This document shows positions 12,691-40,004 of a stretch of 43,067 nt of DNA, piece after piece. Where the stretch lies: positions 1-43,067 of IMG/VR virus record IMGVR_UViG_3300027834_000014, one strand, 5' to 3'. Under the pieces are notes generated by a model that worked only from the letters and a program-made list of their open reading frames with translations, had not been told where the DNA came from and made no database searches. Both the position numbers and the translations under genes were made by a program. The DNA is from a virus. Every line of letters starts with the position of its first letter. The stretch's first letter is position 1.

Positions 12691-13209
12691 CTAAAGTTTA
12701 ATTTTATCTAACCCGTGTTTCTTCCATGCCGCTTGAAACTTTTCGAATGTACTAGCACCTAATGGAGTGTTATAAATTCGCTTGTAATACCGGTAAATCT
12801 CAAATATCTCTTTATGGTCTGGTAGTGGTTCTTTATCCATTGAGTATTTTAATCTAGCCATTGCGCAAGCGTATTTTGGTGATTCAATCAAATCAGAATT
12901 TACAGCTTCAAAATCCTCATCACTATTGTATGTTGGTGCTAGCCCTAATACCTCATATTTAAACTTTGACATATCATTGTTAACATCTTGCATTACATCG
13001 CAATTAGCAAATATATCATCATGCGTATCAGGCTCCATCTGCCAAACACCCAAAGCAGGGCCATTAATTTGCTTTATGTCATACCCACAATCGCTTTCTA
13101 TTGCCGCAGTAGCCAATAAAAGCATTTGTGCATTCTTGCTATTGTAATTTCCACCCATGTATTCAAGGGTTGGTTTAATTATGTAATCTAATAACTGTTT
13201 CGCTTGCAT
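12691..13209 (-). CDS. Endolysin candidate, lysozyme/transglycosylase-like
   Basis: 172 residues. The N-terminal region has AAIESDCGYDIKQI (35-48) with likely catalytic Glu-38, then GPALGVWQMEP (50-60), a pattern shared by goose-type/SLT-like lysozyme folds in phages. A helical C-terminus with a basic end follows. No signal peptide, so release through a holin is expected. It closes the 17.1-12.7 kb operon. Start has a TAGGAGAG site. The catalytic assignment is by motif only; a structural lysozyme-like protein is the alternative. Confidence 0.7.
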   Translation of the reverse strand: MQAKQLLDYIIKPTLEYMGGNYNSKNAQMLLLATAAIESDCGYDIKQINGPALGVWQMEPDTHDDIFANCDVMQDVNNDMSKFKYEVLGLAPTYNSDEDFEAVNSDLIESPKYACAMARLKYSMDKEPLPDHKEIFEIYRYYKRIYNTPLGASTFEKFQAAWKKHGLDKIKL

Positions 13210-13230
13210 TCTTTACTCTCCTAAATTAAT

Positions 13231-13404
13231 TTACAGCTTACAAATTGCGTATTCTACTATACACGGATAATAACCATCAATATTCTCAGTAGCATGTGAC
13301 CATCCATCACCAAGCCATTCAAGAGAATCTTCCCACCCGCTAACGATGTCATTTATTTTGCATCGATAAATTTCACCAACAACCAAATCTTTTCTTTCGA
13401 TCAT
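13231..13404 (-). CDS. Small protein of unknown function, 57 aa
   Basis: Begins MIERKDLVVGEIYRCKINDI, with a GAGGG site before the ATG. Acidic and Trp-rich middle (SGWEDSLEWLGDGWSHA). Beta strands at the N-terminus suggest a small SH3-like or chromo-like fold, but no family is recognised. It sits between the DUF7220-like membrane gene and the endolysin. Confidence 0.6.
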   Translation of the reverse strand: MIERKDLVVGEIYRCKINDIVSGWEDSLEWLGDGWSHATENIDGYYPCIVEYAICKL

Positions 13405-13428
13405 ATCACCCTCACTAAATATAATTAA

Positions 13429-13665
13429 TTACTTGGCAAGCTTCATAGCAACGGCGTGCAACTTAGCATTAAACCATCGGCGTATAACGTAAGATCTAAC
13501 TAATGAAATTACAGTGTATATTGTCCCAAGCCAAATATTTTGCTCGACTGATATCTCCCACCCGAAAAGCGGAAAAATAGTCATGTTTGCAGTAAAGTTA
13601 ATTACCCAGCCAATAACTATATTTATTAGCGCCTCGTAAAGAGAGCCTAGTTTAGTTTGATTCAT
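13429..13665 (-). CDS. Phage membrane protein, DUF7220-like
   Basis: 78 residues with two membrane segments. The order of motifs SLYEALINIVIGWVINF, then FPLFGWEISVEQNIWLG and TVISLVRSYVIRRWFN matches the DUF7220 phage membrane family as I remember it. Function is unknown. Its position two genes before the endolysin makes a role in lysis possible but unproven. Preceded by AAGGA, and its ATG overlaps the stop of the 39-residue gene (ATGA). Confidence 0.7.
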   Translation of the reverse strand: MNQTKLGSLYEALINIVIGWVINFTANMTIFPLFGWEISVEQNIWLGTIYTVISLVRSYVIRRWFNAKLHAVAMKLAK

Positions 13666-13781
13666 AAATAATCCTTAATATTAAAATAGCTTAATAGCCC
13701 TATAGAGCTGTAAATTATTATGCCGATACAAAATTGATTTAATGTTATACCGGCGTTTATGTAAGTTAGTTTGTTATGCAC
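13662..13781 (-). CDS. Possible small hydrophobic protein, 39 aa (GTG start)
   Basis: An open frame from GTG 13781 (overlapping the end of the 31-residue gene) to a TGA that overlaps the ATG of the DUF7220-like gene. It contains one hydrophobic stretch (about residues 14-29) and fills an otherwise empty gap. The ribosome site is weak, so translation is uncertain; coupling to the upstream gene would be needed. Confidence 0.4.
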   Translation of the reverse strand: MHNKLTYINAGITLNQFCIGIIIYSSIGLLSYFNIKDYL

Positions 13782-13869
13782 TGACTAATAACTTTAATGC
13801 AATTACAGCAATAGCAAACACAACAAATACAGTTACTATGAAATTAATTGGGTTGAACGGGTCTTTCAT
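13774..13869 (-). CDS. Small single-TM protein, 31 aa
   Basis: MKDPFNPINF followed by one strongly hydrophobic helix (about 10-29) and a very short tail. AAGGAGAG lies at good spacing before the ATG, two bases after the NinG-like gene. The size and shape match small phage membrane peptides. Function is unknown. Confidence 0.55.
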   Translation of the reverse strand: MKDPFNPINFIVTVFVVFAIAVIALKLLVSA

Positions 13870-13870
13870 C

Positions 13871-14425
13871 TTACTCTCCTTTTAAGCTCTTTAGCTTTTG
13901 TTTAAATTCAGTTTCTAGCTTAAGCATATCGTCAGTAGTCATTTTATCAGTACCGCCTTTCATTGATAAAAGCCTATCGACACGCTCATCACCTATTCTA
14001 ATCCGAAGGTTCTTTTCATAATCACCAGAGTCACCACCTTTGTAAGTGTTGCAGTAAGCTCGTTGCGCATGAATATTATCTTCATCATATCTAATCTTGG
14101 GGTTGTTGCCTGACTCCAACCAATGACCTGCATGATAGTTATCGCCAAGAGGTTCGTTACAACAAATGCATAATAAATCTTTATCTCGATACCTAATGTA
14201 ATCATGACAAGATTTCTTTAGCGCCGGTCGCCTTGCCTTCCTATCCGTTAGTTGAAACTTTCGCTTTTGCTCTGCATGCTTTTTAGCTTTAACCTTTGGT
14301 GCTGACTTAACACCATAATCTTTCATGCATTCAATATCACAATAATAAGCGCCAAATACATGCTTCATACTTTCCGTTAACTTGTATTCTTTGCAATTTC
14401 TGCAGCGCTTATTCTTATTTGCCAT
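13871..14425 (-). CDS. ninG: NinG-like recombination protein
   Basis: 184 residues. An N-terminal zinc site (C8, C11, C29, C33), a basic linker, then the NinG core: a helix with SCHDYIRYRDKDLLCICC, YHAGHW with paired His, NNPKIRYDEDNIH and AYCNTYKGGD. This resembles HNH-type zinc-binding nucleases. Lambda NinG (Rap) is a structure-specific nuclease for recombination joints. The gene is in the recombination operon with the annealing-protein candidate, consistent with phage-encoded recombination. Confidence 0.85.
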   Translation of the reverse strand: MANKNKRCRNCKEYKLTESMKHVFGAYYCDIECMKDYGVKSAPKVKAKKHAEQKRKFQLTDRKARRPALKKSCHDYIRYRDKDLLCICCNEPLGDNYHAGHWLESGNNPKIRYDEDNIHAQRAYCNTYKGGDSGDYEKNLRIRIGDERVDRLLSMKGGTDKMTTDDMLKLETEFKQKLKSLKGE

Positions 14426-14484
14426 TTGCTTATTCCTTACTGGTTAAACTTTTCAATAATAAACTTAACGCCTTTTACTATAGG

Positions 14485-14643
14485 TTAAGGCTGCGGTATT
14501 TCGTACGTGTTAAGCGAAGCGGTGAAAACACCTAAAGCCTCGTATATTTCCTCGTAATCTTTTGTCTTTTTCCACTCTCTACCAACATCACTTGCTAAAA
14601 ACTGCATAGCCAAGCCGGTGTTTGTTCCTTTGGGTATATCCAT
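14485..14643 (-). CDS. Small protein of unknown function, 52 aa
   Basis: MDIPKGTNTGLAMQF..., with a strong AAGGAGAGAG site before the ATG. Mostly helical with acidic stretches (KDYEEIYEALG) and a C-terminus EIPQP. It is co-directional with NinG and the HTH gene. No recognised family. Confidence 0.6.
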   Translation of the reverse strand: MDIPKGTNTGLAMQFLASDVGREWKKTKDYEEIYEALGVFTASLNTYEIPQP

Positions 14644-14686
14644 TTACTCTCTCCTTATTGCGGCCATTATAGCCGCTTTAGTTTAA

Positions 14687-15085
14687 TTAAATTATTGCGT
14701 ACTTAGTTCTAAACCCTTCTTTATCGCCCTTAACCAAATTTGTTATATACGATAAATCTCTGTCTATAGCGTATTTAGTTGCTGACAATATTTTGCACAA
14801 GTCCTTTTTTTGATACTTGTACGGATTGTCTTTTATTAATAAATATAGCTTTTCTCTGCGCTCACAAGTTACATTCTTTTTTAGTATTTCTGCATCTTGC
14901 CCCCAGTTTCTAACTGAGTTTTTATTAACGCCAAGCTCTAAACCAACAACCGTTGCACTCTTTCCTTTTCTTAACATTTCAAGCGCTAGCAGTTTAATAG
15001 CATATGGTGCAGGCTTATTATTAACAGGTTTCTTTTCCGTTATAAATCCTGTGCTTTTTCTCATAGCGATAATAGCTGCTAGCAT
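14687..15085 (-). CDS. Helix-turn-helix protein, 132 aa
   Basis: The central region KSATVVGLELGVNKNSVRNWG (about 42-62) is a clear homeodomain-like HTH. A second helical motif lies at about 90-112 (KKDLCKILSATKYAIDRDL). N-terminal basic segment. Start has GGAAAG upstream. It may be a phage transcription factor for late genes. It has the same two-HTH layout as the 161-residue protein at 25585, but they are not obviously close in sequence. Confidence 0.65.
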   Translation of the reverse strand: MLAAIIAMRKSTGFITEKKPVNNKPAPYAIKLLALEMLRKGKSATVVGLELGVNKNSVRNWGQDAEILKKNVTCERREKLYLLIKDNPYKYQKKDLCKILSATKYAIDRDLSYITNLVKGDKEGFRTKYAII

Positions 15086-18120: not shown

Positions 18121-18277
18121 TTAATACTTGGAGAGTAATAAAGTTCAATATAGATTAAATACTCACCATTGGAAAACAAAATAAAATGTCGAATCCAACA
18201 GTGATTAATCAGGTTGTAATTTGACGGTCACGACCTGATGAGGTTCTATATTAACTCTTTATTGTTTTAATTGCTAG
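18121..18277. other. Structured non-coding region with nested inverted repeats
   Basis: No gene found. An outer imperfect inverted repeat has arms 18137-18154 and 18245-18263 (AATAAAG...AATATAGA against TCTATATT...CTTTATT). Inside lies a hairpin with ATCAGGT (18208-18214) and ACCTGAT (18233-18239), with TGAC-G-GTCA at its apex, and a perfect 10-base palindrome TGATTAATCA (18202-18211). A GGAGAGTAATAA sequence (18130-18141) resembles this genome's ribosome sites but has no ATG after it. It could be a small RNA, an origin element or a decayed gene start. Confidence 0.65.
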
Positions 18278-18553
18278 TTATCTGTTCTTTCTGTTTTCCT
18301 TAGCTATAGCATTCTCGGTTATCCTTGCTTCATTTAACAATCTGTATGCTTCAAGCATGTGATCTGTATCATCTTCGTACGCCAGCCTATTAGGTCTATC
18401 GCCTGACGTTACACCAATACAAACGTTATCTAGACGAACCTTAGCGCAAAGAACTATCTCTCTAACATCGCCACTATTAACCGCCAATCTTTCGTGCGAA
18501 CTTCTTAATGACCAGAACTCTCGCTTATTTATTGATATATTTTTATTACTCAC
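18278..18553 (-). CDS. Hypothetical protein, 91 aa (GTG start)
   Basis: GTG 18553 follows GGAGAGAGAAG. The protein (SNKNISINKREFWSLR...) is charged, with a helix of REFWSLRSSHERLAV and C-terminal KENRKNR. Last gene of the RdgC operon, before the non-coding region and terminator. Unknown function. Confidence 0.6.
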   Translation of the reverse strand: MSNKNISINKREFWSLRSSHERLAVNSGDVREIVLCAKVRLDNVCIGVTSGDRPNRLAYEDDTDHMLEAYRLLNEARITENAIAKENRKNR

Positions 18554-18577
18554 CTTCTCTCTCCTTTGGTAGTTAAA

Positions 18578-18742
18578 TTATTTAGCTTCAGTATCAGAAA
18601 TATCTTGAAGTCGTTTTGTCATATCGTCGATCTTCCTCATTACATACTCTTTATCTTCTTCGCTTGTATACGCGTATTCGAAATAATCACCAATCTCATT
18701 AATACATTTCAATAGTATGGCGCTTAACTTTAAATCTTTCAT
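18578..18742 (-). CDS. Small helical protein, 54 aa
   Basis: ATG 18742 (MKDLKLSAILLKCINEI...) with a reasonable AAGGATAG site upstream. Two charged helices, the second (KEYVMRKIDDMTKRLQDI) amphipathic and possibly a dimerising coiled coil. It lies in the RdgC operon. No family recognised. Confidence 0.6.
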   Translation of the reverse strand: MKDLKLSAILLKCINEIGDYFEYAYTSEEDKEYVMRKIDDMTKRLQDISDTEAK

Positions 18743-18762
18743 CTTACTATCCTTTTATTGGT

Positions 18763-18951
18763 TTATTTAATCATTTCCACATTTTCACAACGGACCCATT
18801 CAATATCGCCATCATCACAACCAAGGCAAATTTCAACAAGACCAATTAGCGCCTCATTAAAATTCACGCTAAATATATCTCTTACAGCTCCCTTGTATTT
18901 GCATTGCATATTTCCGGTAAAGCTTGTTTTATTAAATTCTTCAATGTTCAT
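18763..18951 (-). CDS. Hypothetical protein, 62 aa
   Basis: MNIEEFNKTSFTGNMQCKYK... with a GGAGAGATAAAG site. Contains four Cys (C17, C42, C45, C55); C42/C45 as CLGC suggest metal binding, but the spacing does not form a standard ribbon. The protein is acidic in the C-terminal half. Unknown function, in the RdgC operon. Confidence 0.6.
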   Translation of the reverse strand: MNIEEFNKTSFTGNMQCKYKGAVRDIFSVNFNEALIGLVEICLGCDDGDIEWVRCENVEMIK

Positions 18952-18974
18952 TCTTTATCTCTCCGTTATTAAAT

Positions 18975-19130
18975 TTATTTTTTATCTTCTACTGTTAATA
19001 AGTCAGCGGCCAATAATAAAAGCTCTGAAGCAAGTTCTTTAGCCTCTTTTGCGTCCATTGTTCCAGTGCTAGTTTCATCAACATTAACTTCTACTAACTT
19101 TTTACTTATCCAATGTAAGTTGAATCTCAT
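18975..19130 (-). CDS. Small protein, 51 aa
   Basis: Start chosen at ATG 19130 (MRFNLHWISKKLVEV), preceded by GAGGAGAG. The longer frame to 19184 would overlap the upstream gene. A C-terminal Ala/Leu/Glu-rich amphipathic helix (AKEAKELASELLLLAADLL) is its main feature. Unknown function. Confidence 0.55.
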   Translation of the reverse strand: MRFNLHWISKKLVEVNVDETSTGTMDAKEAKELASELLLLAADLLTVEDKK

Positions 19131-19149
19131 TACTTCTCTCCTCTTTATT

Positions 19150-19422
19150 TTATTTGCCTGTTTTAGCAACCCTGATAGCTTCAATTATGCTTTTATCTAC
19201 TGACTCACCTTTCAATCTAAAAGGCTTGAATTTTCCCTTTACGCGGTTAGAGTAAACTGTTCCGTTAGTGTACAACTCAACTCTTCTAACTCCGCCAACA
19301 ATGGTAATATGATTGTTTTTTGCAGGCCCTTTCGTGGTAAGGCTTAGGTTTTCACGCTCAGCTACAGCAAGTCCTGAATCTAAAATTATATCTATTAGCT
19401 TATTTCTATCATCTTTATTCAT
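19150..19422 (-). CDS. Hypothetical protein, 90 aa
   Basis: Second gene of the RdgC operon. A helical N-terminus (MNKDDRNKLIDIILDSGLAV), then a basic beta region (HITIVGGVRRVELYTNGTVYSN) that could bind nucleic acid, and a helical end. Good GAGGA site. No recognised domain. Confidence 0.6.
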   Translation of the reverse strand: MNKDDRNKLIDIILDSGLAVAERENLSLTTKGPAKNNHITIVGGVRRVELYTNGTVYSNRVKGKFKPFRLKGESVDKSIIEAIRVAKTGK

Positions 19423-19482
19423 TTCTTTATCCTCTTTATTTTAAATATAGGTTAGCGCACCGGTTATGATGCGCTAAAAGTT

Positions 19483-23077: not shown

Positions 23078-23230
23078 ATGAAAATAAATGGCTTTGCACT
23101 GCGTAACAAGAGGAAAATAACAAGAGCATTTAACGATCATTCATATTGGCGAGAAATCCTATCAACAAGTAAGGGCAAAAGGCGCTATTACCACATCAAA
23201 GGTAAAGGTGAATTTGTTTGGACTTATTAA
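23078..23230 (+). CDS. Small basic protein, 50 aa
   Basis: MKINGFALRNKRKITRAFND... with AGGAGAGAG before the ATG. Rich in Arg/Lys and Tyr (GKRRYYHIKGKGEFVWTY). A small beta-type fold is possible. Function is unknown. Confidence 0.6.
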   Translation: MKINGFALRNKRKITRAFNDHSYWREILSTSKGKRRYYHIKGKGEFVWTY

Positions 23231-23293
23231 ATGAGTAACCAAGAACTAAAGCCGGTTGATATGACCGGCTACACTAATCAAATTGGAGAGTAA
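23231..23293 (+). CDS. Possible 20-aa leader peptide before the methyltransferase
   Basis: ATG immediately follows the preceding TAA. The frame is MSNQELKPVDMTGYTNQIGE and stops two bases before the methyltransferase ATG. It contains the hairpin CCGGT/ACCGG. The methyltransferase ribosome site lies inside its last codons, so it could act as a coupling leader. Low confidence. Confidence 0.3.
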   Translation: MSNQELKPVDMTGYTNQIGE

Positions 23294-23983: not shown

Positions 23984-24501
23984 TTATTTGACACCAGCTT
24001 TGATGCCGTAACTTTATCCTTTGTTCTTAAGCCCATCCAAGCTAGATAACCACTAGATAATATTGATATAACAAAAGCATCCGGCGTTGTGGCGTTAAAT
24101 GCGTAAGCAATTGTTGCAGCAAGACTTCCCCACGCCATCAATGGGCGGCTGCTCTTTTCAATCCAACCCTCTGCAACTTTTTGACCTTCAACAATAACTT
24201 TAGATGTTGTTTCATGTTCTTTCTGTTTATCTTCTAGTTCAGCTAAGTGCATTGCTTGTATGTGAGAGCGCACAGAATCTTCATTTTTGTAATAAAGCCC
24301 CTTTAGCTTAACCATCGCATCAGGATTGCCTTGTAGTTGCTGTAAAGCTATATCAGGGTCATCTGAGCCAGTAGCACCAGAAACTAAAGAAACGCCAGCA
24401 GCAATCGCGCCAGGAATATTGCCGGTTAATAGCGAGCCAACTAATGATGCGCCTGTTCCAGCATTATCTTTTATCCAATCACCAACATTTGACCAACTCA
24501 T
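23980..24501 (-). CDS. Holin candidate, 3TM-type
   Basis: 173 residues. An N-terminal amphipathic region with Gly/Ala-rich hydrophobic stretch (about 17-45), a charged helical middle (about 65-105), then EGWIEKSSRPLMAWG (111-125) leading into two closely spaced membrane helices (about 121-137 and 142-158). This resembles the GTA-type 3TM holin family. Isolated minus-strand gene amid plus-strand genes. It would permeabilise the inner membrane for endolysin release. A second holin candidate is at 38256. Confidence 0.7.
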   Translation of the reverse strand: MSWSNVGDWIKDNAGTGASLVGSLLTGNIPGAIAAGVSLVSGATGSDDPDIALQQLQGNPDAMVKLKGLYYKNEDSVRSHIQAMHLAELEDKQKEHETTSKVIVEGQKVAEGWIEKSSRPLMAWGSLAATIAYAFNATTPDAFVISILSSGYLAWMGLRTKDKVTASKLVSNK

Positions 24502-24509
24502 ATTAACCT

Positions 24510-24593
24510 CTAATCTAAATAACCATCGCTAATTCCGCCTGAAAACCCATTGCCAATCATGGCATCGACAATCCAACTATTTTCATCTTTCAT
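24510..24593 (-). CDS. Small protein, 27 aa, upstream of holin
   Basis: MKDENSWIVDAMIGNGFSGGISDGYLD, with AAGGGG upstream of the ATG, 8 bases before the holin start. The Gly-rich, acidic-ending sequence is typical of short phage peptides. Function is unknown. It is the first gene of this short leftward unit. Confidence 0.5.
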   Translation of the reverse strand: MKDENSWIVDAMIGNGFSGGISDGYLD

Positions 24594-24656
24594 AATATTA
24601 ACCCCTTATCTGTTTAGTTAATTTTATCATGAATGGAAATTAATTGTAATTTGCGG

Positions 24657-24684
24657 TTGACTTGTCACGGATAAGTGTTACTAT
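24657..24684 (+). promoter_or_regulatory. Early promoter for cassette 24.7-27.0 kb
   Basis: TTGACT (24657-24662), a 16-base spacer, TACTAT (24679-24684). ACTTGT overlaps the -35. The following leader (TATCAATAACGGAGAGG...TTAGAAA) is nearly the same as that at 39108-39166. Confidence 0.8.
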
Positions 24685-24715
24685 TTAGCTATCAATAACG
24701 GAGAGGGCTTAGAAA

Positions 24716-24868
24716 ATGAATGCAGCAAAGGTAATAAAGAACAAGCATAGTGACTTTGAAGTAGTAATTGATGGTAAGCGTGTCAAGGGTGGGTACTTTT
24801 CAAGAATGGAAGATTACGCCAATACAGAAGCAAAAAAAATGGCAAGAATGATTAACCAAGGAGAATAA
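24716..24868 (+). CDS. Small protein, 50 aa
   Basis: MNAAKVIKNKHSDFEVVIDGKRVKGG..., with CGGAGAGG 9 bases before the ATG. Basic, with a beta hairpin (FEVVIDGKRVKGGYF) and a C-terminal helix. First gene of the cassette. No family known. Confidence 0.6.
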   Translation: MNAAKVIKNKHSDFEVVIDGKRVKGGYFSRMEDYANTEAKKMARMINQGE

Positions 24869-24871
24869 GAA

Positions 24872-25135
24872 ATGGGTGAATTAAAGGCTTCATCGGTAAC
24901 AGTAAGTAAAATAAAAAACATTATGTCTTCTGGCGTTCTTAAAAACGCACCTAGAGGCGCAACGCATTATGATATGTTTTGGTGTCAGTTTCTTAAAAAG
25001 TGCGGCGATAAGCTTAGGTTTTTTGAAGATAACATGTGGAAAATTAGCGGACATAAAGACGGCGTTAATATGCTTAGCAATGGGGAGTGCATAAACTTAT
25101 GGACAATGAAGATTGAACAAGGAGCAAACAAGTAA
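24872..25135 (+). CDS. Hypothetical protein with AP-x-GAT element, 87 aa
   Basis: NAPRGATHYDMFWCQF (about 25-40) followed by a W-x-x-SGH strand region resembles residues 98-145 of the 289-residue protein at 7234. This looks like a small domain often seen in phage proteins, with no known role. Its 3-prime end, GAACAAGGAGCAAACAAGTAA, provides the ribosome site for the next gene and is nearly the same as the end of the 132-residue gene at 39565. Confidence 0.6.
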   Translation: MGELKASSVTVSKIKNIMSSGVLKNAPRGATHYDMFWCQFLKKCGDKLRFFEDNMWKISGHKDGVNMLSNGECINLWTMKIEQGANK

Positions 25136-25273
25136 ATGACTAAAATGCTGGAATGCCCCGAATGCGGAGAAACTAAACCAAGGCGTAACGATGCTGAGGT
25201 TTGTGGTGGAACTTGCCGACAAAGAAAAAAACGAAGATTAGCAAAGGAGAAGAAAAATGAAAAGCACAACTAA
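25136..25273 (+). CDS. Zinc-finger protein, 45 aa
   Basis: MTKMLECPECGETKPRR..., with CPEC (C7, C10) and CGGTC (C23, C27) followed by a very basic tail (RQRKKRRLAKEKK). A single zinc finger plus basic helix suggests nucleic-acid binding. ATG follows the preceding stop directly, with AAGGAG upstream. Counterpart at 39566 has the same layout. Confidence 0.6.
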   Translation: MTKMLECPECGETKPRRNDAEVCGGTCRQRKKRRLAKEKKNEKHN

Positions 25274-27145: not shown

Positions 27146-28954
27146 TTATTGGAACACTTCCATTAACTGACCAGTAGCAGTCCTATAAACTGTACCAACC
27201 AATTCGCCACCAGCTAAAGCAGCGGCATTGTCAGCGTAAACAGGCGTGTTGTATCGTATCTGTTTACCATTTTTAAGCCATACATAAGCGTTAGCTCTAG
27301 CAGCATCACTTGTACCAATGCCGAGAGATTCAGCTACTTGACCAGCAACATAAGTGGTTTTGGAAGGCGATCCAATTCCGTCAGGGTTAGAAGGATCGTT
27401 GTAGGTGCCTTTAACAACTTCCAAGTAACTATCTGCACGCAAACCTAGACCACCAAGGATTGAAGATCTTGATCCAATCGATATGTTATCTTCACCACCT
27501 AATATTGATACGCCAATAAGCACAGTCCCATCTGATGCAATACCTATCTCATTGCCTGAGCCACCTCCAACAAACGAATTCTGGACTGTTGTTGACAACA
27601 TTGCGTTAGCAGTACCGCCTACAATTGCGTTTTGTGTTCCGCTTGCTGTCGCTATATTGTTTGCAAATCCGCTACCAATAAACGAGCGTTGACCATTCAT
27701 TAGATTTTGAAAGCCGCCAACAATTACAGAATATTGAGCGTTGCTCTGTATATCATTCTCACGACCCCCAACAATAACAGAATGCTGACCTGTGCTAGCA
27801 CTGATACTGTTAGACTCACCACCGCCGATAAAAGCGTAAACAGTATTTGATCCAATGATTTGATTTGATTTGCCACCTATCAAAACGGAGTGCCCGGAAC
27901 TTTGACCTGTTATCTGGTTTGATTGACCCCCACCCAAGAAAGTATAAAAAGCGTTATCACCTGTAATTTGGTTTAACTCACCGCCTACCAAGACAGCGCG
28001 GCTAGTGGCTGTTCCTGTGATGGTGTTTTCGCCTCCACCACCAATAAAGCATCTGTTAGCAGTATCTCCAGAAATAACATTGTCGCGACCACCTACTATT
28101 ACAGATAAGAATGCTTGTGTTCCGTTTATCAGGTTTGTATTACCACCACCAATAAACGAATAGTTAACAATATCAGCGTTTATTTCATTTCCTTTACCGC
28201 CAGCGATAGTAACCCAATAACCATCGGCTCTATTTTGCCAGCCTCCACCAATAAAAGCACCTTGACAGTCATTATCAAAAGCCGCCAATATCTGATTGTC
28301 ATTGCCTCCACATATTGTCGCGCCGTCACCAAGTCCAATAGCTCCGGCCCCCATATTTATTACGTTATTTCTTCCGGCTAGTATTGCTGAATACCTAAGA
28401 TTGCCAATCAAGGATAGCAAGTTTGCCGGGGGCGTTCCACCAAGCCCCCATTGATCGGAATATGTGCTTAATGTTTTATCTAAAGCGATACTCTGTGATA
28501 CATTATCACTGGCAATTATATCTTTATCATTACCCGCACCCGTACCCGCAATAACTAAAAATTTAGCGCTTCTATCAAGTAGGTTAATAACCTTACCTAA
28601 AGGAAATTCAGCAATAAAAGCTTTGTATGCCGCCACCGTAGGAAACTCATACGCTTGTGATAGGTCGCTTATTAAATCTGAAGAATTTCCAACTGTGAAC
28701 TCTTCTCTGTTTGCGCCAACCTTTATGTAATAACTGCCATCTTCAACATAAAAATTACACCTTCCAGATGAATCGCTTACGTTTTCAATCCCATCTTGAT
28801 TTATTGGGTTGGCTCCTGCTGCATCGCTAAATATATCAGCTAGCGTGTCATTGGTGTTGTAAACCTCAAATACAGTTCCGGCAAAGTAATTGTTTCCGCC
28901 AGCCTCTGAATCATTGAAAGCCGCTATATTAAATATTGTTTGTTTTAGTGCCAT
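27146..28954 (-). CDS. Tail fibre/tailspike with YadA-head-like repeats
   Basis: 602 residues. The N-terminus (about 1-105) has EVYNTNDTLADIFSDAAG, then NPINQDGIENVSDSSGRCNFYVEDGSYYIKV, a pattern shared by tailspike head-binding regions. Residues about 190-480 contain at least a dozen 20-25-residue repeats built on (I/V)GG-x-x-N-x-I-x-G, resembling Hep/Hag or YadA head left-handed beta rolls. The C-terminus has no recognised chaperone domain. It overlaps the upstream tail gene (TAATG). Likely binds host surface. The terminator at 27108 follows. Confidence 0.8.
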   Translation of the reverse strand: MALKQTIFNIAAFNDSEAGGNNYFAGTVFEVYNTNDTLADIFSDAAGANPINQDGIENVSDSSGRCNFYVEDGSYYIKVGANREEFTVGNSSDLISDLSQAYEFPTVAAYKAFIAEFPLGKVINLLDRSAKFLVIAGTGAGNDKDIIASDNVSQSIALDKTLSTYSDQWGLGGTPPANLLSLIGNLRYSAILAGRNNVINMGAGAIGLGDGATICGGNDNQILAAFDNDCQGAFIGGGWQNRADGYWVTIAGGKGNEINADIVNYSFIGGGNTNLINGTQAFLSVIVGGRDNVISGDTANRCFIGGGGENTITGTATSRAVLVGGELNQITGDNAFYTFLGGGQSNQITGQSSGHSVLIGGKSNQIIGSNTVYAFIGGGESNSISASTGQHSVIVGGRENDIQSNAQYSVIVGGFQNLMNGQRSFIGSGFANNIATASGTQNAIVGGTANAMLSTTVQNSFVGGGSGNEIGIASDGTVLIGVSILGGEDNISIGSRSSILGGLGLRADSYLEVVKGTYNDPSNPDGIGSPSKTTYVAGQVAESLGIGTSDAARANAYVWLKNGKQIRYNTPVYADNAAALAGGELVGTVYRTATGQLMEVFQ

Positions 28955-31545
28955 TAGTAATCCCGTAAACCCTTTATAGTTAAATCATTGTCGCCAATTA
29001 TGTTAATATCATTACCGTTTGATTTTATGGCGAAGCCAGGAGCGCCAGCATCACCAGTATCATTGTTTTCATCCGAGTACCCACCAAAAGCCCCGGCCTT
29101 TAACCCGCCCAGTTCACCAGGTGCGGCTCGCGTACCTTCCATGCCATCAAGGCCAGTATCAGACATTAAGTTTTCTATTGTCGCGGTACTTCCAACGCCT
29201 TTTTTTCCGCCAACGTAACCTTGACCACCAGAGCCGCCATTACCACCCTGAACATATGGGGCGTTAAAGCTGTCGGCTATAGTAACTGATGATGGAGAGC
29301 CTCCACCGCCTGAGTATATTACACCTTGAGACACGTCAATCTCACAATCAACAGTTAAGTTTAAAGCGTTACCGCCTTGTGAGCCATTAGTTCCAGGTCT
29401 AACAACCCTTAACGGAAAGTCATTAGGGTTTGTTGTTGTCGCATCTGTTGCGCTTGGCCCTGTTCCGCCTGCACCTAAAATACCGCCTCTAATGATTAAC
29501 CTGAATGTAACTCCGCTTGCTTGTGTGCCAGTATCAAAAGCATCTACTAGCGTGCTTGTGCCACCAATAGTTACACCTGAAGGTATAAAAACAGTATACT
29601 CGCCAGCGGCAGGAGGCGCGAACTCAGTTGATAAGTCATAATTCTCCTTGTCGCCATCAACAATAAAATCAAAATCATCCTCATTAATTATATCCTGATA
29701 AGTTATAGCTTTTACGGTATATGTTGCTTCATCAGGATTGTCCTTTAAGCTAAGTATTTGTAAATTGTTTGCTTTGGGGTTTCCGTAATCATCAACAGTA
29801 TTATCACTAGTGACATTTATTATTTCAGCCTCTTCAATCACACCCCCATCAACCGCTCCAAATTTTGAATAGTCTATTTTAAATGTGAATATTTCAGGCG
29901 CTTTAGTGTTTAGGTTTGAAATTCTAGCCGCGCCACCTATGGCAATTTGAATATCTTGGTCTGTATTAGTTAAAAACTGGGTATAAAAATCATCTTCTGA
30001 CTGTGGTTCAAGTGTCCCAGTTACTTCAGTTAATACGTTTATTGATTCAAACAATATGCTAGCGTTTTCGTCATCAGTTTTCTTTGCCCCGTTAAATGGG
30101 GCGAAGCCTATCGTTGATCTCGTTAACTGACTTGAGTATTGAGGTTTGCTTGATAGTGATTCTTGCTTTATGTCCTCGCTAAAATCTAGCGTAACAGGCT
30201 GCTGCTCGAAATCTCCAACCGCTTTAATTTTTATTTTTTGCGCTCGTTCATCGAAATATAAAGCTATGTTTGATTCAGCCCAAGTTCTAATAATTAAGTT
30301 TATATATTTGCTTGCTGAGTCTGGTTTGTAAATGTATACGGGGCCAGTTGCGTTAGGTGTTGCTGCAATCGCGCCTGAATAATCACCGTAAAATTTAGTA
30401 GGTATACTTGTTTGCTGTAACTCTTCAATAATGGTTTCTATCGGGTTAAAGTCGGTTAAAACCTTAACAATTTGCACTGATGCATTAATGCTATGGTCTT
30501 TTGTTTCGCTTCCGCCAACCTCTCTTGATGTTATTTCTAGCTCGCCAGTGGTGCTATCAGTTACTTTACACTCTATTAGTTCGCTATCAATCACGACTGT
30601 TACCGTATCGGTATCTTGACCGTATTCTCCAACAATAAAATCTTTTAGCTCAATACTAACTGACGCGCTTGTAATGGCGTTTAATAATCTTCCGCTCGAT
30701 ACCATAGGCGTTTTAGTTTTACTTGCCTCTGCTAGCATTAGTGGATCAAGAAGCTTTACAGACCACGAACCTTTATTTAATGACTGTGAATCAACAATGT
30801 ATTCCCTAGCAACACAATCCTCCTTGCTGAAGTTGCCGTTATTTTCAAAGCCAGTGTATGTTATTGCCCTTCTGTTTTGCAGATAACCACCAGTTCTTGC
30901 CAATAGCTTTTTAATCAATGTAGCGTTGCTAGTCCTTCTTTCAGGGTAAGGCACTGAATAAACGTCATCATCAGTATTGTCCATTATCGTTATTGATGCG
31001 CTAGCGTTTTTAGCCATACTAACACCTGGCTTAATTTCGCTTGGACTATGTGATATTGAGCTAAGACCGTTGTAATAGATTTGACCGTCATAACTTTGAC
31101 CATTTATAAATAAAAATTCACGTTCAGCATTTCGATCAAAACTATCATTAGTTGAACACCCTCCTCCATCAGGGCGCTTAGGGTATCCCAAGCAAGATCC
31201 ATCAGCCTCGCCGCCGTGGATTATTTGCGCGTTTGGCATCATATGAGTTTCGTCAGTTGTGCCAAACTCACCACGGGATAATATTTCAATCTCAGTTGCA
31301 GTGTTTATTTTTATTTTTATTATTTCATCGCCAGCTTTTAAGTATGGATTTGATGAAACAAAAAATAAAGGATCGCCATCAGCTATCGTAAACACACCAG
31401 TGTAACCTGCATTCAAATGCGCGTTCAATGTTACATCGCGCTTATCAAAAGCACCGTCAACAGTGTACTTGCAGGCGTTAACGAATATCGATACGCCAGA
31501 GGTTAGCGACTCACCGTAGTTATTCTTTTTGCTATCAAATGACAT
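28954..31545 (-). CDS. Tail-tip protein with glycine-rich receptor-binding C-terminus
   Basis: 863 residues. The first about 640 are beta-rich with several strands/loops typical of tail hub or central baseplate proteins. From about 650 on it has Gly-rich segments (RLIIRGGILGAGGTG, YSGGGGSP, GGNGGSGGQGYVGGKKG, DTGDAGAPGF), resembling polyglycine-helix receptor-binding tips of T-even gp38 and some lambda J-like proteins. It likely recognises the host receptor at the tail tip. One-base overlap with both neighbours. Confidence 0.75.
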   Translation of the reverse strand: MSFDSKKNNYGESLTSGVSIFVNACKYTVDGAFDKRDVTLNAHLNAGYTGVFTIADGDPLFFVSSNPYLKAGDEIIKIKINTATEIEILSRGEFGTTDETHMMPNAQIIHGGEADGSCLGYPKRPDGGGCSTNDSFDRNAEREFLFINGQSYDGQIYYNGLSSISHSPSEIKPGVSMAKNASASITIMDNTDDDVYSVPYPERRTSNATLIKKLLARTGGYLQNRRAITYTGFENNGNFSKEDCVAREYIVDSQSLNKGSWSVKLLDPLMLAEASKTKTPMVSSGRLLNAITSASVSIELKDFIVGEYGQDTDTVTVVIDSELIECKVTDSTTGELEITSREVGGSETKDHSINASVQIVKVLTDFNPIETIIEELQQTSIPTKFYGDYSGAIAATPNATGPVYIYKPDSASKYINLIIRTWAESNIALYFDERAQKIKIKAVGDFEQQPVTLDFSEDIKQESLSSKPQYSSQLTRSTIGFAPFNGAKKTDDENASILFESINVLTEVTGTLEPQSEDDFYTQFLTNTDQDIQIAIGGAARISNLNTKAPEIFTFKIDYSKFGAVDGGVIEEAEIINVTSDNTVDDYGNPKANNLQILSLKDNPDEATYTVKAITYQDIINEDDFDFIVDGDKENYDLSTEFAPPAAGEYTVFIPSGVTIGGTSTLVDAFDTGTQASGVTFRLIIRGGILGAGGTGPSATDATTTNPNDFPLRVVRPGTNGSQGGNALNLTVDCEIDVSQGVIYSGGGGSPSSVTIADSFNAPYVQGGNGGSGGQGYVGGKKGVGSTATIENLMSDTGLDGMEGTRAAPGELGGLKAGAFGGYSDENNDTGDAGAPGFAIKSNGNDINIIGDNDLTIKGLRDY

Positions 31546-32369
31546 TACACGAACCCTTTAAAGTCAAAAGTAAAAGTGCCGGTTGTGTTTGTTGCATATG
31601 TTGGCGGCGTTAAAGAATTAGGGTTCGACGCGCGTCCAAAAAAGTTTTGTTGTAAGTTTTTATTCCACTTCATAAATAGCGCCTTACCGTCTTTTACATG
31701 GTTCATATAGTCAGCATATTGACGGTTGAAAGAATCCTCATCATCAGCCCACTTAATAAAATCAAACTTTCCTTTTTGCTCGTAACCTCTTTTTATTCTA
31801 CGCCCCATTATAAACTGATTTGTTTCGCTGCTAAATGATTCAAGCTTATCTATTGAGTTGGTATACCCAGGAGTAAATCCAATGGAAGGAGTTTTATCAA
31901 AAACCCATGCCTTGCCAATGTAAATATTACCTATGAATAATTTACTGGTAAAATTAAGCGTCAATCGCTGGCGTGAAGATGATAGAGTATCGAAATAAAC
32001 TATCATTGTTTTGTTGTCACCTGTTGGTGCTAGCGTGCCAGTTTCAACCCAAACTCCATTTGATAAAACTTCAATTTTACCGCTTAGCCCTGCCGTTTTT
32101 CCGTTATGAATCCCTATACCAAGGTAATCTATATCGCTTTCGCTTAACTGGTTGAATGTTATCACTACACTGCCGCTTTCTGCGTTAGGACTGTATTGTG
32201 TATTATCCCTAAAGTCTAAGCAGTTGCTAAATGGATATGTAGCATCTTCATCTTCACCGGTGTAAGTTGATGAGGTTAACAGAGAGCGAAAGCCTATTAT
32301 GGCAGCGCAAGTTTTAGCAACCTCTGCACTGCTTGGTAGTACAATCGTTCTGCCTACTATGTTTGCCAT
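31545..32369 (-). CDS. Tail protein, distal-tail-like, 274 aa
   Basis: Located between tape measure and tail-tip genes, where distal tail/minor tail proteins are found. Beta-rich with a central jelly-roll-like region (SDIDYLGIGIHNGKTAGLSG, DTLSSSRQRLTLNF) and a C-terminal segment RRIKRGYEQKGKFDFIKW. TAATG overlaps on both sides show tight coupling. Exact family not recognised. Confidence 0.65.
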   Translation of the reverse strand: MANIVGRTIVLPSSAEVAKTCAAIIGFRSLLTSSTYTGEDEDATYPFSNCLDFRDNTQYSPNAESGSVVITFNQLSESDIDYLGIGIHNGKTAGLSGKIEVLSNGVWVETGTLAPTGDNKTMIVYFDTLSSSRQRLTLNFTSKLFIGNIYIGKAWVFDKTPSIGFTPGYTNSIDKLESFSSETNQFIMGRRIKRGYEQKGKFDFIKWADDEDSFNRQYADYMNHVKDGKALFMKWNKNLQQNFFGRASNPNSLTPPTYATNTTGTFTFDFKGFV

Positions 32370-34600
32370 TAGATAGCCCCTATTCTTTGCGCGTTTGATT
32401 GACCGTTGTTTATAGCAATATTAACACCTTCGCTTTCTGAAATATAATTCTCAAATTGTTCTCTTGTTATTGGGATCATATCGTTAGGGCCAAAGTTTTC
32501 TAAACCTGTGATGTTTATTATTCTATCTTGCGATTGATTGTCAACGCTTGGTGCTGTTGGCGTTACAGTTGGCGATGTTGAAGGAACAGTCGGAGCGCTT
32601 GAGCTACCAGGACTAGCGCTTTTTATTGTTGCCAACAATCCTGCGCCTTGTGCTGCAACTTGAGCGGCAAAACCTAAGTTTGCAGGGTATGGATTATTTA
32701 ATGCTTTAGCTACACCAGAAGCAATATTTACAATAGCATCTGCAATTGCGAACTTCTTCTGAGTCTTACTTGATTGGCTACCAAAGGCTGAAAGCAATGA
32801 TAGTGTTGCGCTTGCCCCTGTTCTTATGTTGTCAATTCTGGCGTTGCTCGCTAGCAATTCTAGCTTTGTTCTATCGTCAGAGCCTTGCTTTGTTTTTTCT
32901 GTTATCTGGTCTTGCTTTATTTGTTCAGCGTCAATTTCTTGCTGTGCTAACTCTGCTATCAACTCTGTTTTTTGCTCATGAGTTAGCTTTTCATTTTCAA
33001 GTATTGCGGCGCGTCTTGATTCATAGTTAAAAAATACATTTTGAAGCGCTAACTCTTCATCAAGTTGACGTTGATTTATTTCACCTTCTGCAAATGCTCG
33101 CCTAACTTCTGCCTCTGCTTGTATAGCTTGCGTTTCAAGTTCAAGCCTAGCTTTTAACGATGCAAAGGCAGCGTCACCTGATTCACTTCCCGCACCTTTA
33201 TCTGGCTTGACTTCCGCCTTAGGTGCGTTACCGAAAATATCATTGTCACCAGTGCCAGAAAATGCAGCGCTAATCTGGCTATCAACAGCTAGCAGAGCAA
33301 TCCTTTCTTCTCGCTGCCTTTTATAAGCCTCTAAGAGTTTATCTGCATCACTTATCTTCTCAGCTTGCGCTTTTCTTTCTGTTTCCCTTTGGGCCAATAT
33401 AGATTCAATAGCCGCATCCCTTGCTGATTCTATATTTTTTATTTGCTTTCCTAGCGCGCCCCTTGCATCGTCTACATCTTGATCGTCAAAAGGGTTAAAA
33501 GCCGCCCTTGTTGCCACTCCGTAAGCTGCAACCCTGTCGACAAATGCAGCAAGCTCAACAGTTACAATCTGAGTAAAGTTTCTAATATTTGGTATTATAT
33601 TTAAGAATGCATCACTTATATCAAGCGTTGAGCCGTTGGTATCAGAAACCATCTGATCACCCATGTTCTCCCATATATCTAAAATGTATTTTGTTGTGAA
33701 CGATATGTCATCACCAATCTGTGATAATTGATCGCCAAAAACTTCAGCTATCTTTCCGGCTGCGCCACTTGCAACCGCATCACCAAGCATATCTATAGCA
33801 TTTGATAACTCAATAAGCGTACCTGAGAATACATCTGAAGCGCCAGTAGCTTCATCGGTCAACCCTATTAGTCTAGTTATTGACGTACCGGCAACCGTAA
33901 AACCTTCGGCTATTGAAACGCTAGCCCTATCAAATGAGCTTTGAAATTCTGGAAGAGAGTTTTGCAAGGCTTTAAAAACCCTTTCCGTAACTAGCTCACC
34001 CGCAGCGCCTAATTCTTTTAGCTGCCCAACCTGTACGCCAAATTCTTTAGCTATGGCGCGAGATACAGGCAAAGAAGCCTCCATGATCGCCTTTAACTCT
34101 TCACCTTGTAAAGCACCTGCGCCAAGACCTTGCCCAAGCTGAACTAAAACACTTGCAGCCTCTTCTGCGCTTGCTCCGTTTGCTTTGAATGCCTTTGTTA
34201 ACCCTTCGACAACATCAAGAGAGTCTTTAGTACTAAAGCCAAAGTCAGCAACAGAGTTTGATATTCTTTGATACGCATCAGCAACACCATTAATTTCAAC
34301 ACGCGAAGTTTTCGCTATTTGAAATATAGCTTCTTGAACAGCTAAAGCCTCAGTTGTGCTTGTTGTGGTTTGTTTTATTTGGTTGTTTACTTTTGTCCAT
34401 GCGTCCGCATACCTAGCAACAGCACCAGTAGCAAGCGCAGCGCCAACAGCAGCAGCAACCTTTGTCAATGAACCAAATGAGCTAACAACTCCGTCAGCGC
34501 TAGCTCCAATACCTTTAACTTTTTTATTTAAGCTATCAGCACTTGATTCAGCTGCTCTTGATTTTAAAGCAATTTCAATTTCACGTTTTTCTGATGCCAT
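32369..34600 (-). CDS. Tape measure protein
   Basis: 743 residues. N-terminal tape-measure domain (about 60-235): KVNNQIKQTTTSTTEALAVQ, EINGVADAYQRISNSV, LTKAFKANGASAEEAASVLVQLGQGLGAGALQGEELKAIME, KEFGVQVGQLKELGAAG. Then long helical/coiled-coil stretches, Ala/Glu rich, and a Pro/Thr/Ser-rich linker near 690. It sets tail length, and this size suits a siphovirus tail of roughly 110 nm by the usual ratio. It follows the two chaperone frames. Confidence 0.93.
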   Translation of the reverse strand: MASEKREIEIALKSRAAESSADSLNKKVKGIGASADGVVSSFGSLTKVAAAVGAALATGAVARYADAWTKVNNQIKQTTTSTTEALAVQEAIFQIAKTSRVEINGVADAYQRISNSVADFGFSTKDSLDVVEGLTKAFKANGASAEEAASVLVQLGQGLGAGALQGEELKAIMEASLPVSRAIAKEFGVQVGQLKELGAAGELVTERVFKALQNSLPEFQSSFDRASVSIAEGFTVAGTSITRLIGLTDEATGASDVFSGTLIELSNAIDMLGDAVASGAAGKIAEVFGDQLSQIGDDISFTTKYILDIWENMGDQMVSDTNGSTLDISDAFLNIIPNIRNFTQIVTVELAAFVDRVAAYGVATRAAFNPFDDQDVDDARGALGKQIKNIESARDAAIESILAQRETERKAQAEKISDADKLLEAYKRQREERIALLAVDSQISAAFSGTGDNDIFGNAPKAEVKPDKGAGSESGDAAFASLKARLELETQAIQAEAEVRRAFAEGEINQRQLDEELALQNVFFNYESRRAAILENEKLTHEQKTELIAELAQQEIDAEQIKQDQITEKTKQGSDDRTKLELLASNARIDNIRTGASATLSLLSAFGSQSSKTQKKFAIADAIVNIASGVAKALNNPYPANLGFAAQVAAQGAGLLATIKSASPGSSSAPTVPSTSPTVTPTAPSVDNQSQDRIINITGLENFGPNDMIPITREQFENYISESEGVNIAINNGQSNAQRIGAI

Positions 34601-34912
34601 TTATTTAGCCTCTGCCTTTCTTCGCGCTGTTTCAATGGTTAGCCATTCATTATCAAGCGCTAAAATAATATCAATTATTATATCAGGTTCGTAAGATTTA
34701 CACCCATGTATACTAATATGTTCAATTACATCTTGCTCAGTAAGCGGCAAAGGTGAAGCCATTTGTCCTGTATAACGTCTTGAGCGCGATATTGTGTTAA
34801 ATGAATTCATGGCTAATTGCATCTTGTTGGTAACGCTAGGCTTTGACTCTAAAAGCTGCTTTAGCATAGGAGAATTGCGTTTTCTCCTATCCTTTTGCAT
34901 TGCTGTTATCAT
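34601..34912 (-). CDS. Tail assembly chaperone, second frame (G-T extension)
   Basis: A 103-residue frame between the first chaperone frame and tape measure. It is open without a stop from the slippery site A-AAA-AAG at 34945-34951 and joins the first frame after a -1 shift (adding ALTWQSSGNDE before MITAMQ). The sequence has a basic N-terminus and a helical C-terminus. It is probably expressed mainly as the G-T fusion that coats the tape measure protein during tail assembly. Independent initiation at 34912 has no strong ribosome site. Confidence 0.7.
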   Translation of the reverse strand: MITAMQKDRRKRNSPMLKQLLESKPSVTNKMQLAMNSFNTISRSRRYTGQMASPLPLTEQDVIEHISIHGCKSYEPDIIIDIILALDNEWLTIETARRKAEAK

Positions 34913-34938
34913 TTCATCGTTACCAGATGATTGCCATG

Positions 34939-35376
34939 TTAGCGCTTTTTTAGCTCTTCTATTGCCTCTCTGCCCTCTTCGCTTAAGTAGAATTCAAAGT
35001 TTCCTGCTTTAGTCATAAGTATAGGCACTAAGCTTTCATGCATGGATTTACAGTTAAATATACCGCGACAGTTTTCACGACTAAAAGGCAACTCCTCCAT
35101 GTTTTCAGCGTCTAAAGCGCCGCCAAAGTCAGTTATATATTCACCAAGCCACATAGCGTAAATTTCACTCATATCAACATCAGATTGATCGCAATAAATA
35201 CCCTTGTGCTTTTTAATTATAGCTTGTATTTGCTTTTGGTATTTATGCCCGCCAACACGAGGAACACAAAAAAACAAATCTTCACCTTGTAGCGGGTAAA
35301 TAGGCGTTCCGCTTTCTTGAAGTTTAGTATCCTCTGAAAATACCGCTAAATTAATTAAGTTCAAATTACTCTCCAA
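34939..35376 (-). CDS. Tail assembly chaperone, first frame
   Basis: 145 residues, placed between the tail tube gene and tape measure, as with lambda G. It ends ...IEELKKR with the slippery heptamer A-AAA-AAG in the zero frame two codons before the stop. Unshifted product is the short chaperone; about 258 residues result with a -1 shift. Preceded by a terminator/attenuator after the tail tube gene. Ribosome site TTGGAGAG. Confidence 0.75.
   Translation of the reverse strand: MESNLNLINLAVFSEDTKLQESGTPIYPLQGEDLFFCVPRVGGHKYQKQIQAIIKKHKGIYCDQSDVDMSEIYAMWLGEYITDFGGALDAENMEELPFSRENCRGIFNCKSMHESLVPILMTKAGNFEFYLSEEGREAIEELKKR
34945..34951 (-). promoter_or_regulatory. Programmed -1 frameshift site A-AAA-AAG
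   Basis: In the zero frame the codons are CTA AAA AAG CGC TAA. The heptamer A-AAA-AAG is the classic bacterial -1 slippery sequence. After the shift, reading continues into the 34601-34912 frame with no stop. A GAGAGG purine-rich, SD-like sequence lies about 14 bases upstream and may stimulate the shift. Confidence 0.85.
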
Positions 35377-35408
35377 ATTGTTTTATTAAATTCATTGTAT
35401 CATATACA

Positions 35409-35436
35409 AAAAAGCCACCGTTAAAAGTGGCTTTTT
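35409..35436 (-). terminator. Terminator/attenuator after the tail tube gene
   Basis: A perfect 10-bp stem AAAAAGCCAC (35409-35418) with GTGGCTTTTT (35427-35436). On the minus strand it is 15 bases after the tube stop. It likely lowers transcription of chaperone and later tail genes relative to the tube. Confidence 0.85.
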
Positions 35437-35450
35437 AATTCAGTGTTTAT

Positions 35451-36629
35451 TTAAAAGTTTGAGTAAATACTTACCGTTCTGCCGTTAGCAATACTTTCTT
35501 CACAAGCAAAGCTTAAGTTGTTAACAGCAATAGCGTTTGCTTCAGTTGGGTTGTCATGCTCGGTCATTACTGATTGTTCCATTACTACAATCATTGACTT
35601 ACCATCTGTCCATTCAATTTCTACAGCAAAGTTAACGCGTGTACGGTTTTCATATCGGCGCTGCCATTTGCGAGAGTCACTAATTAATGCGCGCGTTACC
35701 AATGAGCCACTAGCAGTAAATGAACGGCCACCATAGTTAATAGCGTTACAACCAGCACCGCGGCTTTCTTGCAAGTTATTGTTAATTTCAAGCGTCATGC
35801 TTTTAACTTCACAATCACTATCAGCACCATCAACCCAGAAACGCTTTACATTATTCACTGCGCTAACTACATCAGATTGATCGCGCGCTTTATCAGTTTG
35901 ACCAGTAACAGGAGCATCACCCGCTAAAGGCAATTCACTAACTAAGTTGCCGGTAGATGTACAAATTCCGCTTTCAGGAATTTCAAACGTTAAGCTGTTA
36001 AATAACGAATCTAAATAACTACGGTAACTAACATCATTAGTGGCAGATAAATCAACCATGCGCTCCTGTGTGCCGTAGTAATACGGACTAGTGCCTGATT
36101 GAGCTTTCATGCTTGCTACGGTGATAGAGCTACCAGCGCTTTCTAGCGAAGCTGGTGCAGGACTAGTTGTGATATCATCACCTGAAACGCTTGTTACATT
36201 GTAGGCGCGGTTATCATCAGCATTAGCTAAGCCAGAAACAAAGATATAACTTCCTTCTGGTATAGTGTGCCCTGGAACTTCAAAACCCGTTGCTGTTGCC
36301 GAAATATCAATATCAGTAATTGAGTTATCTTCTTGCTCACAATACAAAGCAGCAACTAAATAGTCTTTAGTTTGCTGTGTTATCTCGCTAGAAATTTCAG
36401 ACGGATAAGTATTTGTATCCTGAATTTGCTGCTTGCCTTGCTGGTTGGTTTTAATTTCACCAGACTCAACATAAGCAAAAGTGCTTTTAGTTGTGCCAGA
36501 AATACGGCGCACATAGTCCCATTCTGGGTTTGTGTCCAAGGCGCCTTTTGTTGTTTGCGGGGTGACATAAAAGCTTATGTCATTCGCGTTTAATTCGCGA
36601 TCATTTACAATAGTTGGTGTGATAGCCAT
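35451..36629 (-). CDS. Major tail tube protein
   Basis: 392 residues, after the connector genes and followed by attenuator then chaperones. Fits the phage tail tube family with a long two-part beta structure: N-terminal VTPQTTKGALDTNPEWDYVRRISGTT, a middle insertion (about 110-170) with an Ig-like beta domain (TEVPGHTIPEGSYIFVSG-type strands), and C-terminal VNFAVEIEWTDGKSMIVVM. Stacked hexameric rings form the tail tube. Its expression would be high, given the terminator. Confidence 0.8.
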   Translation of the reverse strand: MAITPTIVNDRELNANDISFYVTPQTTKGALDTNPEWDYVRRISGTTKSTFAYVESGEIKTNQQGKQQIQDTNTYPSEISSEITQQTKDYLVAALYCEQEDNSITDIDISATATGFEVPGHTIPEGSYIFVSGLANADDNRAYNVTSVSGDDITTSPAPASLESAGSSITVASMKAQSGTSPYYYGTQERMVDLSATNDVSYRSYLDSLFNSLTFEIPESGICTSTGNLVSELPLAGDAPVTGQTDKARDQSDVVSAVNNVKRFWVDGADSDCEVKSMTLEINNNLQESRGAGCNAINYGGRSFTASGSLVTRALISDSRKWQRRYENRTRVNFAVEIEWTDGKSMIVVMEQSVMTEHDNPTEANAIAVNNLSFACEESIANGRTVSIYSNF

Positions 36630-36631
36630 TT

Positions 36632-38531: not shown

Positions 38532-38613
38532 CTTTTACCCGTTTAACTATGTGTTTAATACAATTATAGATTACCCAACCATTAGCACCAATGGCTATTA
38601 TTGGTAAAGCCAT
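38494..38613 (-). CDS. Small single-TM protein, 39 aa
   Basis: MALPIIAIGANGWVIYNCIKHIVKRVKDEYFKRRTTRDK, with AGGAAG before the ATG. A hydrophobic N-terminal segment (2-17) then a very basic tail. It overlaps both neighbours (38 and 32 bases), which is notable but consistent with the tight packing here. Confidence 0.45.
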   Translation of the reverse strand: MALPIIAIGANGWVIYNCIKHIVKRVKDEYFKRRTTRDK

Positions 38614-39036: not shown

Positions 39037-39073
39037 GATAATCCTTGTTTGATAATTGCCTTAGTGCCAACCA

Positions 39074-39166: not shown

Positions 39167-39565
39167 ATGAATATTAACAATATAAAGAAATGGTTATCAG
39201 ATTCAGACAAGATTAAAAATGTTAAAGCTAACTTTAAGCGCTCCACATCAAGCTCTAATGTAGATAAATTTCAATTAGGTTTCAATGCAGATCATAGGTT
39301 TAAGTCGTTTAGTGCTACTGTTTATTTTGGCGGCTACACTGGCGATTATGGCGATTCTAGCGTTTATAATTTTTTATCTCTTGGTGATGCTGATGTAGCA
39401 AAAGAAGCTGTAATTCAATACATGAAAGATAATGAAGATGATTTACTTTTATATATTTCTGAGTTTTATAAAAGTAAAGCTATTGAATCCAAAGACAAGG
39501 CAAAATCCTTGCTAGAGGCAGATTTAAACGTAATAAAAGAGCTTGAACAAGGAGCAAGCAAATAA
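39167..39565 (+). CDS. Hypothetical protein, 132 aa
   Basis: MNINNIKKWLSDSDKIKNVKANF..., ribosome site CGGAGAGG. N-terminal charged helix, a central beta region (ATVYFGGYTGDYGDSSVYNF) and long C-terminal helix. The end carries GAACAAGGAGCAAGCAAATAA, which gives the ribosome site for the zinc-finger gene downstream. Not recognised. Confidence 0.6.
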   Translation: MNINNIKKWLSDSDKIKNVKANFKRSTSSSNVDKFQLGFNADHRFKSFSATVYFGGYTGDYGDSSVYNFLSLGDADVAKEAVIQYMKDNEDDLLLYISEFYKSKAIESKDKAKSLLEADLNVIKELEQGASK

Positions 39566-39736
39566 ATGCCGTCAACAAAGAAAACATGCAAGTACGAGCG
39601 ATGCACCGACGGCGATAACGGTGCTCGCAAAGAGTTTTATGCTACTGCTAGTGGTGAGTATTGCTGCCCTAAGCATGGTACATATCAAAGGCGTTTAGAT
39701 AAGCGCAAGGAGAAGAGCGATGAGCAAATTAAGTGA
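39566..39736 (+). CDS. Zinc-finger protein, 56 aa
   Basis: CKYERC (C8, C13) and CCPKHG (C33, C34, H37) may bind one zinc; a basic tail (RRLDKRKEK) follows. ATG follows the preceding stop, with AAGGAG. Same layout as the 45-residue gene at 25136, at the same place after a similarly ending gene. Confidence 0.6.
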   Translation: MPSTKKTCKYERCTDGDNGARKEFYATASGEYCCPKHGTYQRRLDKRKEKSDEQIK

Positions 39737-39980: not shown

Positions 39981-40004
39981 AAAGCCCCTATCTCAAGGGG
40001 CTTT
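39981..40004. terminator. Bidirectional terminator between convergent genes
   Basis: A 9-bp perfect stem AAAGCCCCT (39981-39989) and AGGGGCTTT (39996-40004), between the plus-strand cassette end and the minus-strand 112-residue gene end. Confidence 0.85.

Follow-up and report, generated by a model that had tools for sequence, protein, structure and literature searches.

Two small accessory cassettes in this marine phage each open with a promoter and leader, carry variable genes behind them, and run through an inner junction into a gene for a short, Cys-rich and basic protein (Table 1). Throughout, 'the window' means the whole virus record that was analysed, 43,067 nt in length. The first cassette belongs to the early operon. 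The second is opposite in strand to the late genes, between a membrane-protein gene (38582–38986) and 40009–40347, and ends in a hairpin that is probably a terminator in both directions. A repeat search finds a 128-nt terminal repeat at 1–128 and 42932–43059, and because contig 3300002225_000021 reads across the join between its copies, the genome is taken to be circular or permuted, at about 42.9 kb. The families matched (terminase, portal, tape measure, minor tail) are those of a siphovirus, and the terminase and tail proteins are nearest to those of Pseudoalteromonas phages.

Table 1. Coordinates of the cassettes, seams and slots in the window
Feature	Coordinates	Strand	Evidence
Cassette 1 left edge: sigma70-like promoter TTGACT-16-TACTAT, leader, ribosome-binding site, start codon	24657..24721	+	Pattern matches, repeats, identity with G001
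Cassette 1 variable content: a 50-aa gene (24716–24868) and an 87-aa gene (24872–25135)	24716..25135	+	Unrelated 55- and 87-aa genes in the G001 slot
Cassette 1 inner junction: upstream gene end, ribosome-binding site, start of Cys/basic gene	25110..25138	+	90% identical to 39540–39568, kept in G001
45-aa Cys/basic protein	25136..25273	+	100% identity over 45 aa in G001
Cassette 2 left edge: promoter TTGACT-16-TACACT, leader, ribosome-binding site, start codon	39108..39172	+	Repeat and pattern matches
Cassette 2 variable content: 132-aa protein, function not assigned	39167..39565	+	Family match, phrog_25872 (E 2.4e-7)
Cassette 2 inner junction	39540..39568	+	Repeat and pattern match
56-aa Cys/basic protein of cassette 2	39566..39736	+	Sequence
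Final gene of cassette 2, encoding a Cys-rich protein of 60 aa	39761..39943	+	ORF; weak phrog_9369 match
GC-rich hairpin closing cassette 2	39981..40004	.	Hairpin search
First series of slots whose seams are conserved and whose genes are replaced, NinG (13871–14425) included	13204..15085	-	Comparison of window and G001
Second series of such slots, again with seams conserved and genes replaced	18247..19448	-	Comparison of window and G001
Gene start cut off directly before the MT-A70 methylase gene; G001 has the full gene (56 aa)	23227..23290	+	57 nt identical; frame ends after 20 codons

Promoter-leader and inner junction each occur twice in the window, with 0 mismatches to their shared patterns, and neither pattern occurs in 100 dinucleotide-preserving shuffles; a repeat finder lists the same two pairs, as D3 and D13. 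The leader core alone gives 2 matches against 0.14 expected, and the genome has no third copy. (Extra exact matches to the core in contigs L002 and L003, with neither promoter nor start context, were taken as chance.) Between the cassettes the promoter-leaders are ~79% identical over 66 nt and the junctions 90% over 29 nt; the likeness noted in the sequence-only reading is borne out. Its 16-base spacer before TATCAAT was misplaced: 16 nt is the distance between the promoter hexamers, in both cassettes, and the gap from TTGACTTGT to TATCAAT is 24 nt. Likeness at the left edge begins at the -35 box and ends at the first codons. Likeness at the junction begins ~8 codons short of the upstream gene's stop, at 25110 and 39540 rather than at 25115 and 39544 as first given, and ends at the next start codon.

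What lies between these edges differs, as had been claimed: the variable genes of cassette 1 are two in number, of 50 and 87 aa, and in cassette 2 there is a single one, of 132 aa. The 132-aa protein has an identical copy in viral contigs and otherwise no relative in viral contigs, phage records or GTDB genomes; prediction of its structure from the single sequence gave a mean pLDDT of 39.9, which is unusable. The Cys/basic proteins that follow the junctions, both described earlier as zinc fingers, are alike in style. But BLASTP aligns nothing between them, the 45-aa protein alone has a zinc-ribbon match, weak and sub-threshold (E 0.021), and the 56-aa protein matches no family.

Because the cassettes have promoter and leader in common and each places a small, basic, Cys-containing protein behind its junction, they could be read as a regulon. 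The leader would then be the operator of a phage regulator, for which each cassette's own Cys/basic protein is a possible candidate, on the model of acr-aca operons, and the edges would be alike through co-regulation and not through exchange. This we regard as very unlikely. The promoter inverted repeats of acr-aca operons, bound by a last-encoded HTH repressor, have no counterpart here: the promoter regions share no inverted repeat, and family searches match no HTH in the Cys/basic proteins. The leader, moreover, has no further copy in the genome, and the inner junction, which is also common to both cassettes, is left unexplained by an operator. An anti-defence reading was likewise set aside: PADLOC gave no defence-system match above E 0.03, and the promoters contain no inverted repeat.

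Pattern scans of viral contigs found the exact cassette edges in one different phage and in one fragment identical to the window. That phage is G001 (IMG/VR 3300027834_000019, 35.8 kb). A near-identity search of window 20001–40500 against phage records returned no match, the promoter-leader is absent from GTDB genomes, and NinB relatives at 38–75% amino-acid identity come with neither cassette promoter nor junction. The G001 promoter-leader is 95% identical to that of cassette 1 over 127 nt, and its junction and Cys/basic gene 87.5% identical over 480 nt, whereas between these edges G001 carries 55- and 87-aa genes unrelated to the 50- and 87-aa genes of the window (a z score of 2.7 for the 50/55-aa pair does not justify a homology call). 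Different genes within the same edges, the outcome foreseen for related phages, are thus found in G001, and at about ten further slots as well; the fixed gene content and missing shared edges that would have told against exchange were not seen in this comparison. Cassette exchange at shared sequences is accordingly supported between phages at the cassette 1 locus, gene diversity per slot being that of two genomes, the window and G001; homologous recombination at the edges is its likely means. With cassette 2, G001 shares a match to the promoter-leader and nothing beyond.

The same arrangement recurs on a larger scale. The window and G001 share many islands of 23–88 nt, in 13.2–19.4 kb and 22–27 kb, and the genes between these seams are mostly unrelated. 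Short conserved islands fall on gene ends in 15 of 17 cases, against 3.1 expected and a random maximum of 10 in 20,000 placements. Over the 25 nt before the start codon, window and G001 match at 20–25 positions in the same slot; in different slots the figure is 8.8 ± 2.6. Identity ends at the start codon, just 14–22 of the first 57 nt matching in 11 replaced genes. Since genes kept in both phages are ~94–95% identical in DNA at best, gradual divergence in place cannot account for the others, which were replaced. The NinG/Rap resolvase gene of the window occupies the place of RusA and YbcO in G001, which is a swap of functional analogues at one seam; alternation of NinG and RusA is familiar from lambdoid phages. 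The MT-A70 methylase of the window falls in a region where G001 has a C5 cytosine methylase.

Seams of this kind might be conserved just as selected expression signals, the genes being replaced by illegitimate recombination and only working junctions kept, with the seams themselves passive. Every seam does contain a ribosome-binding site and start codon, the cassette edges contain promoters, and illegitimate exchange is a standard model of phage mosaics (PMC3029335). Even so we judge this explanation unlikely. Seams differ by slot, and a generic signal would not need 23 identical positions of 25; several are 100% identical over 26–57 nt, bases outside the signal included; and each single-gene replacement in a row would require two exact illegitimate joins within seams. 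An artefact of assembly, in which the second copy or the mosaic arose from chimeric contigs, has to be considered for metagenomic sequences such as these, but is highly improbable: contig 3300002225_000021 repeats window 31118–43059 at 99.99%, cassette 2 included, contig 3300002225_000035 matches eleven proteins of the 9.2–16 kb region at 100%, and G001 has the early seams in the same order as the window across many kilobases.

The reading we favor, with fair confidence, is that genes are exchanged by homologous recombination at conserved boundary sequences; the process is a known one and shows up here at high density. The shared stretches are gene seams. In each, one gene's stop is followed by the ribosome-binding site and start of its downstream neighbor, and at the head of a cassette a promoter and leader are included. 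Seams stay near-constant within this phage group while the genes between them are swapped, one or two at a time, for unrelated ones from other phages; the replacement is evident from the comparison, and the exchange step itself is most likely homologous recombination between co-infecting phages with common seams. Because the seam carries expression signals, an incoming gene would be expressed at once. The window encodes several recombination-related genes (exonuclease, NinB/Orf, NinG/Rap, RdgC), and the first three products, or else host RecA, are candidate agents. Among the genes of the window no annealing protein (RecT, Erf, Redbeta) was recognised, which counts against the reading, and the recombinase may thus be host RecA. 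Orf and Rap aid lambda recombination, and phage recombinases use short or diverged homology (PMC3945230, PMC2327257). As for the two copies of the edges, the cassette may have been copied between early operon and late moron site, or taken twice from a common pool; the edges of cassettes 1 and 2 are 10–21% diverged, so any link between them would be old. A bolder proposal, which we hold to be unlikely, makes the seams slot-specific docking sequences, maintained in the population and letting single genes swap with working expression signals, and makes promoter-leader and junction a mobile frame that has moved variable genes about within one genome, between its early operon and its late moron site.

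Some seams bear traces of joining. The unrelated 87-aa and 132-aa proteins of cassettes 1 and 2 end in EQGANK and EQGASK, respectively; these residues are encoded by the shared junction itself, and the G001 seam has TAA at the tail position where the cassettes read GAA, so the protein tail is a product of the seam. The cut-off gene start before the MT-A70 methylase gene, at 23231–23290, is another such trace. Elsewhere, the seams at 19127 and 19418 are alike and have a single counterpart in G001. In G001, in turn, a perfect 31-nt direct repeat (L034 8641–8671 and 9200–9230) flanks the genes after ninB; it is a seam used twice.

Several known systems invite comparison, and none is quite the same. 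The closest are the boundary, or linker, sequences of lambdoid phages (Susskind and Botstein 1978; Clark et al. 2001, as cited in PMC3029335). There, as in the window and G001, short conserved intergenic sequences flank alternative, unrelated genes at the same place, and on this defining feature the two phages belong with the lambdoid type. The present case differs in that seams persist at almost all gene joints across two long regions, with the single gene as unit, and in that one genome has the same edge pair at two places. T4-type PeSLs (Arbiol et al. 2010; Comeau et al. 2014, as cited in PMC4503421) are mobile regulatory cassettes in which, as here, a conserved early promoter element edges the exchanged genes. 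A PeSL, however, joins the early promoter to a stem-loop terminator and is present in many copies in a hypervariable region, neither of which holds for the window cassettes: no terminator-like hairpin lies on the + strand in 24501–24657 or 38986–39108, and there are two copies only, in a host-type siphovirus setting. The SAS/ESAS known from cluster K mycobacteriophages (PMC3203893) are likewise conserved just upstream of the start codons of different gene families, but there a single 13-nt sequence recurs across the genome, whereas each window slot has a seam of its own.

Cassette 2 also recalls the morons of tailed phages, with its own promoter (39108–39135) and own hairpin, set between late genes and running against them. 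At the matching place, contig L040, whose tail protein is 66% identical, has a different opposite-strand cassette with a similar closing hairpin, and Pseudoalteromonas phage H105/1 has four opposite-strand genes and an annotated terminator. Unlike a moron, cassette 2 has a promoter in common with the early operon of the same phage. An empty site, with the flanking genes adjacent, was seen in no relative; L040 and H105/1 hold other cassettes there. The site is best described as a moron locus with changing content.

The origin of phage mosaics is disputed, shared sequences usually being missing at the joints (PMC3029335, PMC2327257). The window and G001 keep such sequences at nearly every joint of two long regions, so that gene-by-gene replacement is seen directly, and the pair provides a natural case in which homologous and illegitimate exchange can be weighed against each other. 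As an instance of seam exchange it is new and clear, but not a new kind: single-gene swapping between near-unchanged joints is known phage evolution in unusually clear form. It is also a dense example of a general tendency, weaker in seven Vibrio phages sharing NinB, where 45 of 60 short islands fall on gene ends against ~9 expected (summed over non-independent pairs) and each pair has only 0–4 such islands. The cassette loci mark two likely locations of unstudied accessory genes in marine phages.

A few further observations deserve mention. An opposite-strand cassette with terminator stands between head and tail genes in three phages: the window (39108–40004), L040 (6503–7289) and L041 (3305–4262). 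L040 and H105/1 each have a small protein that, by eye, starts alike, with M(N)NEMTDLS. RdgC, usually a bacterial chromosomal protein, is encoded by the phage at 19483–20421 (PF04381, E 2.9e-100). The late region encodes an 876-aa protein (40413–43043) without any PHROG match. A 602-aa protein (27146–28954) has many repeated IGGGxxN-like motifs, resembles trimeric adhesin repeats, and is probably a tail fibre.
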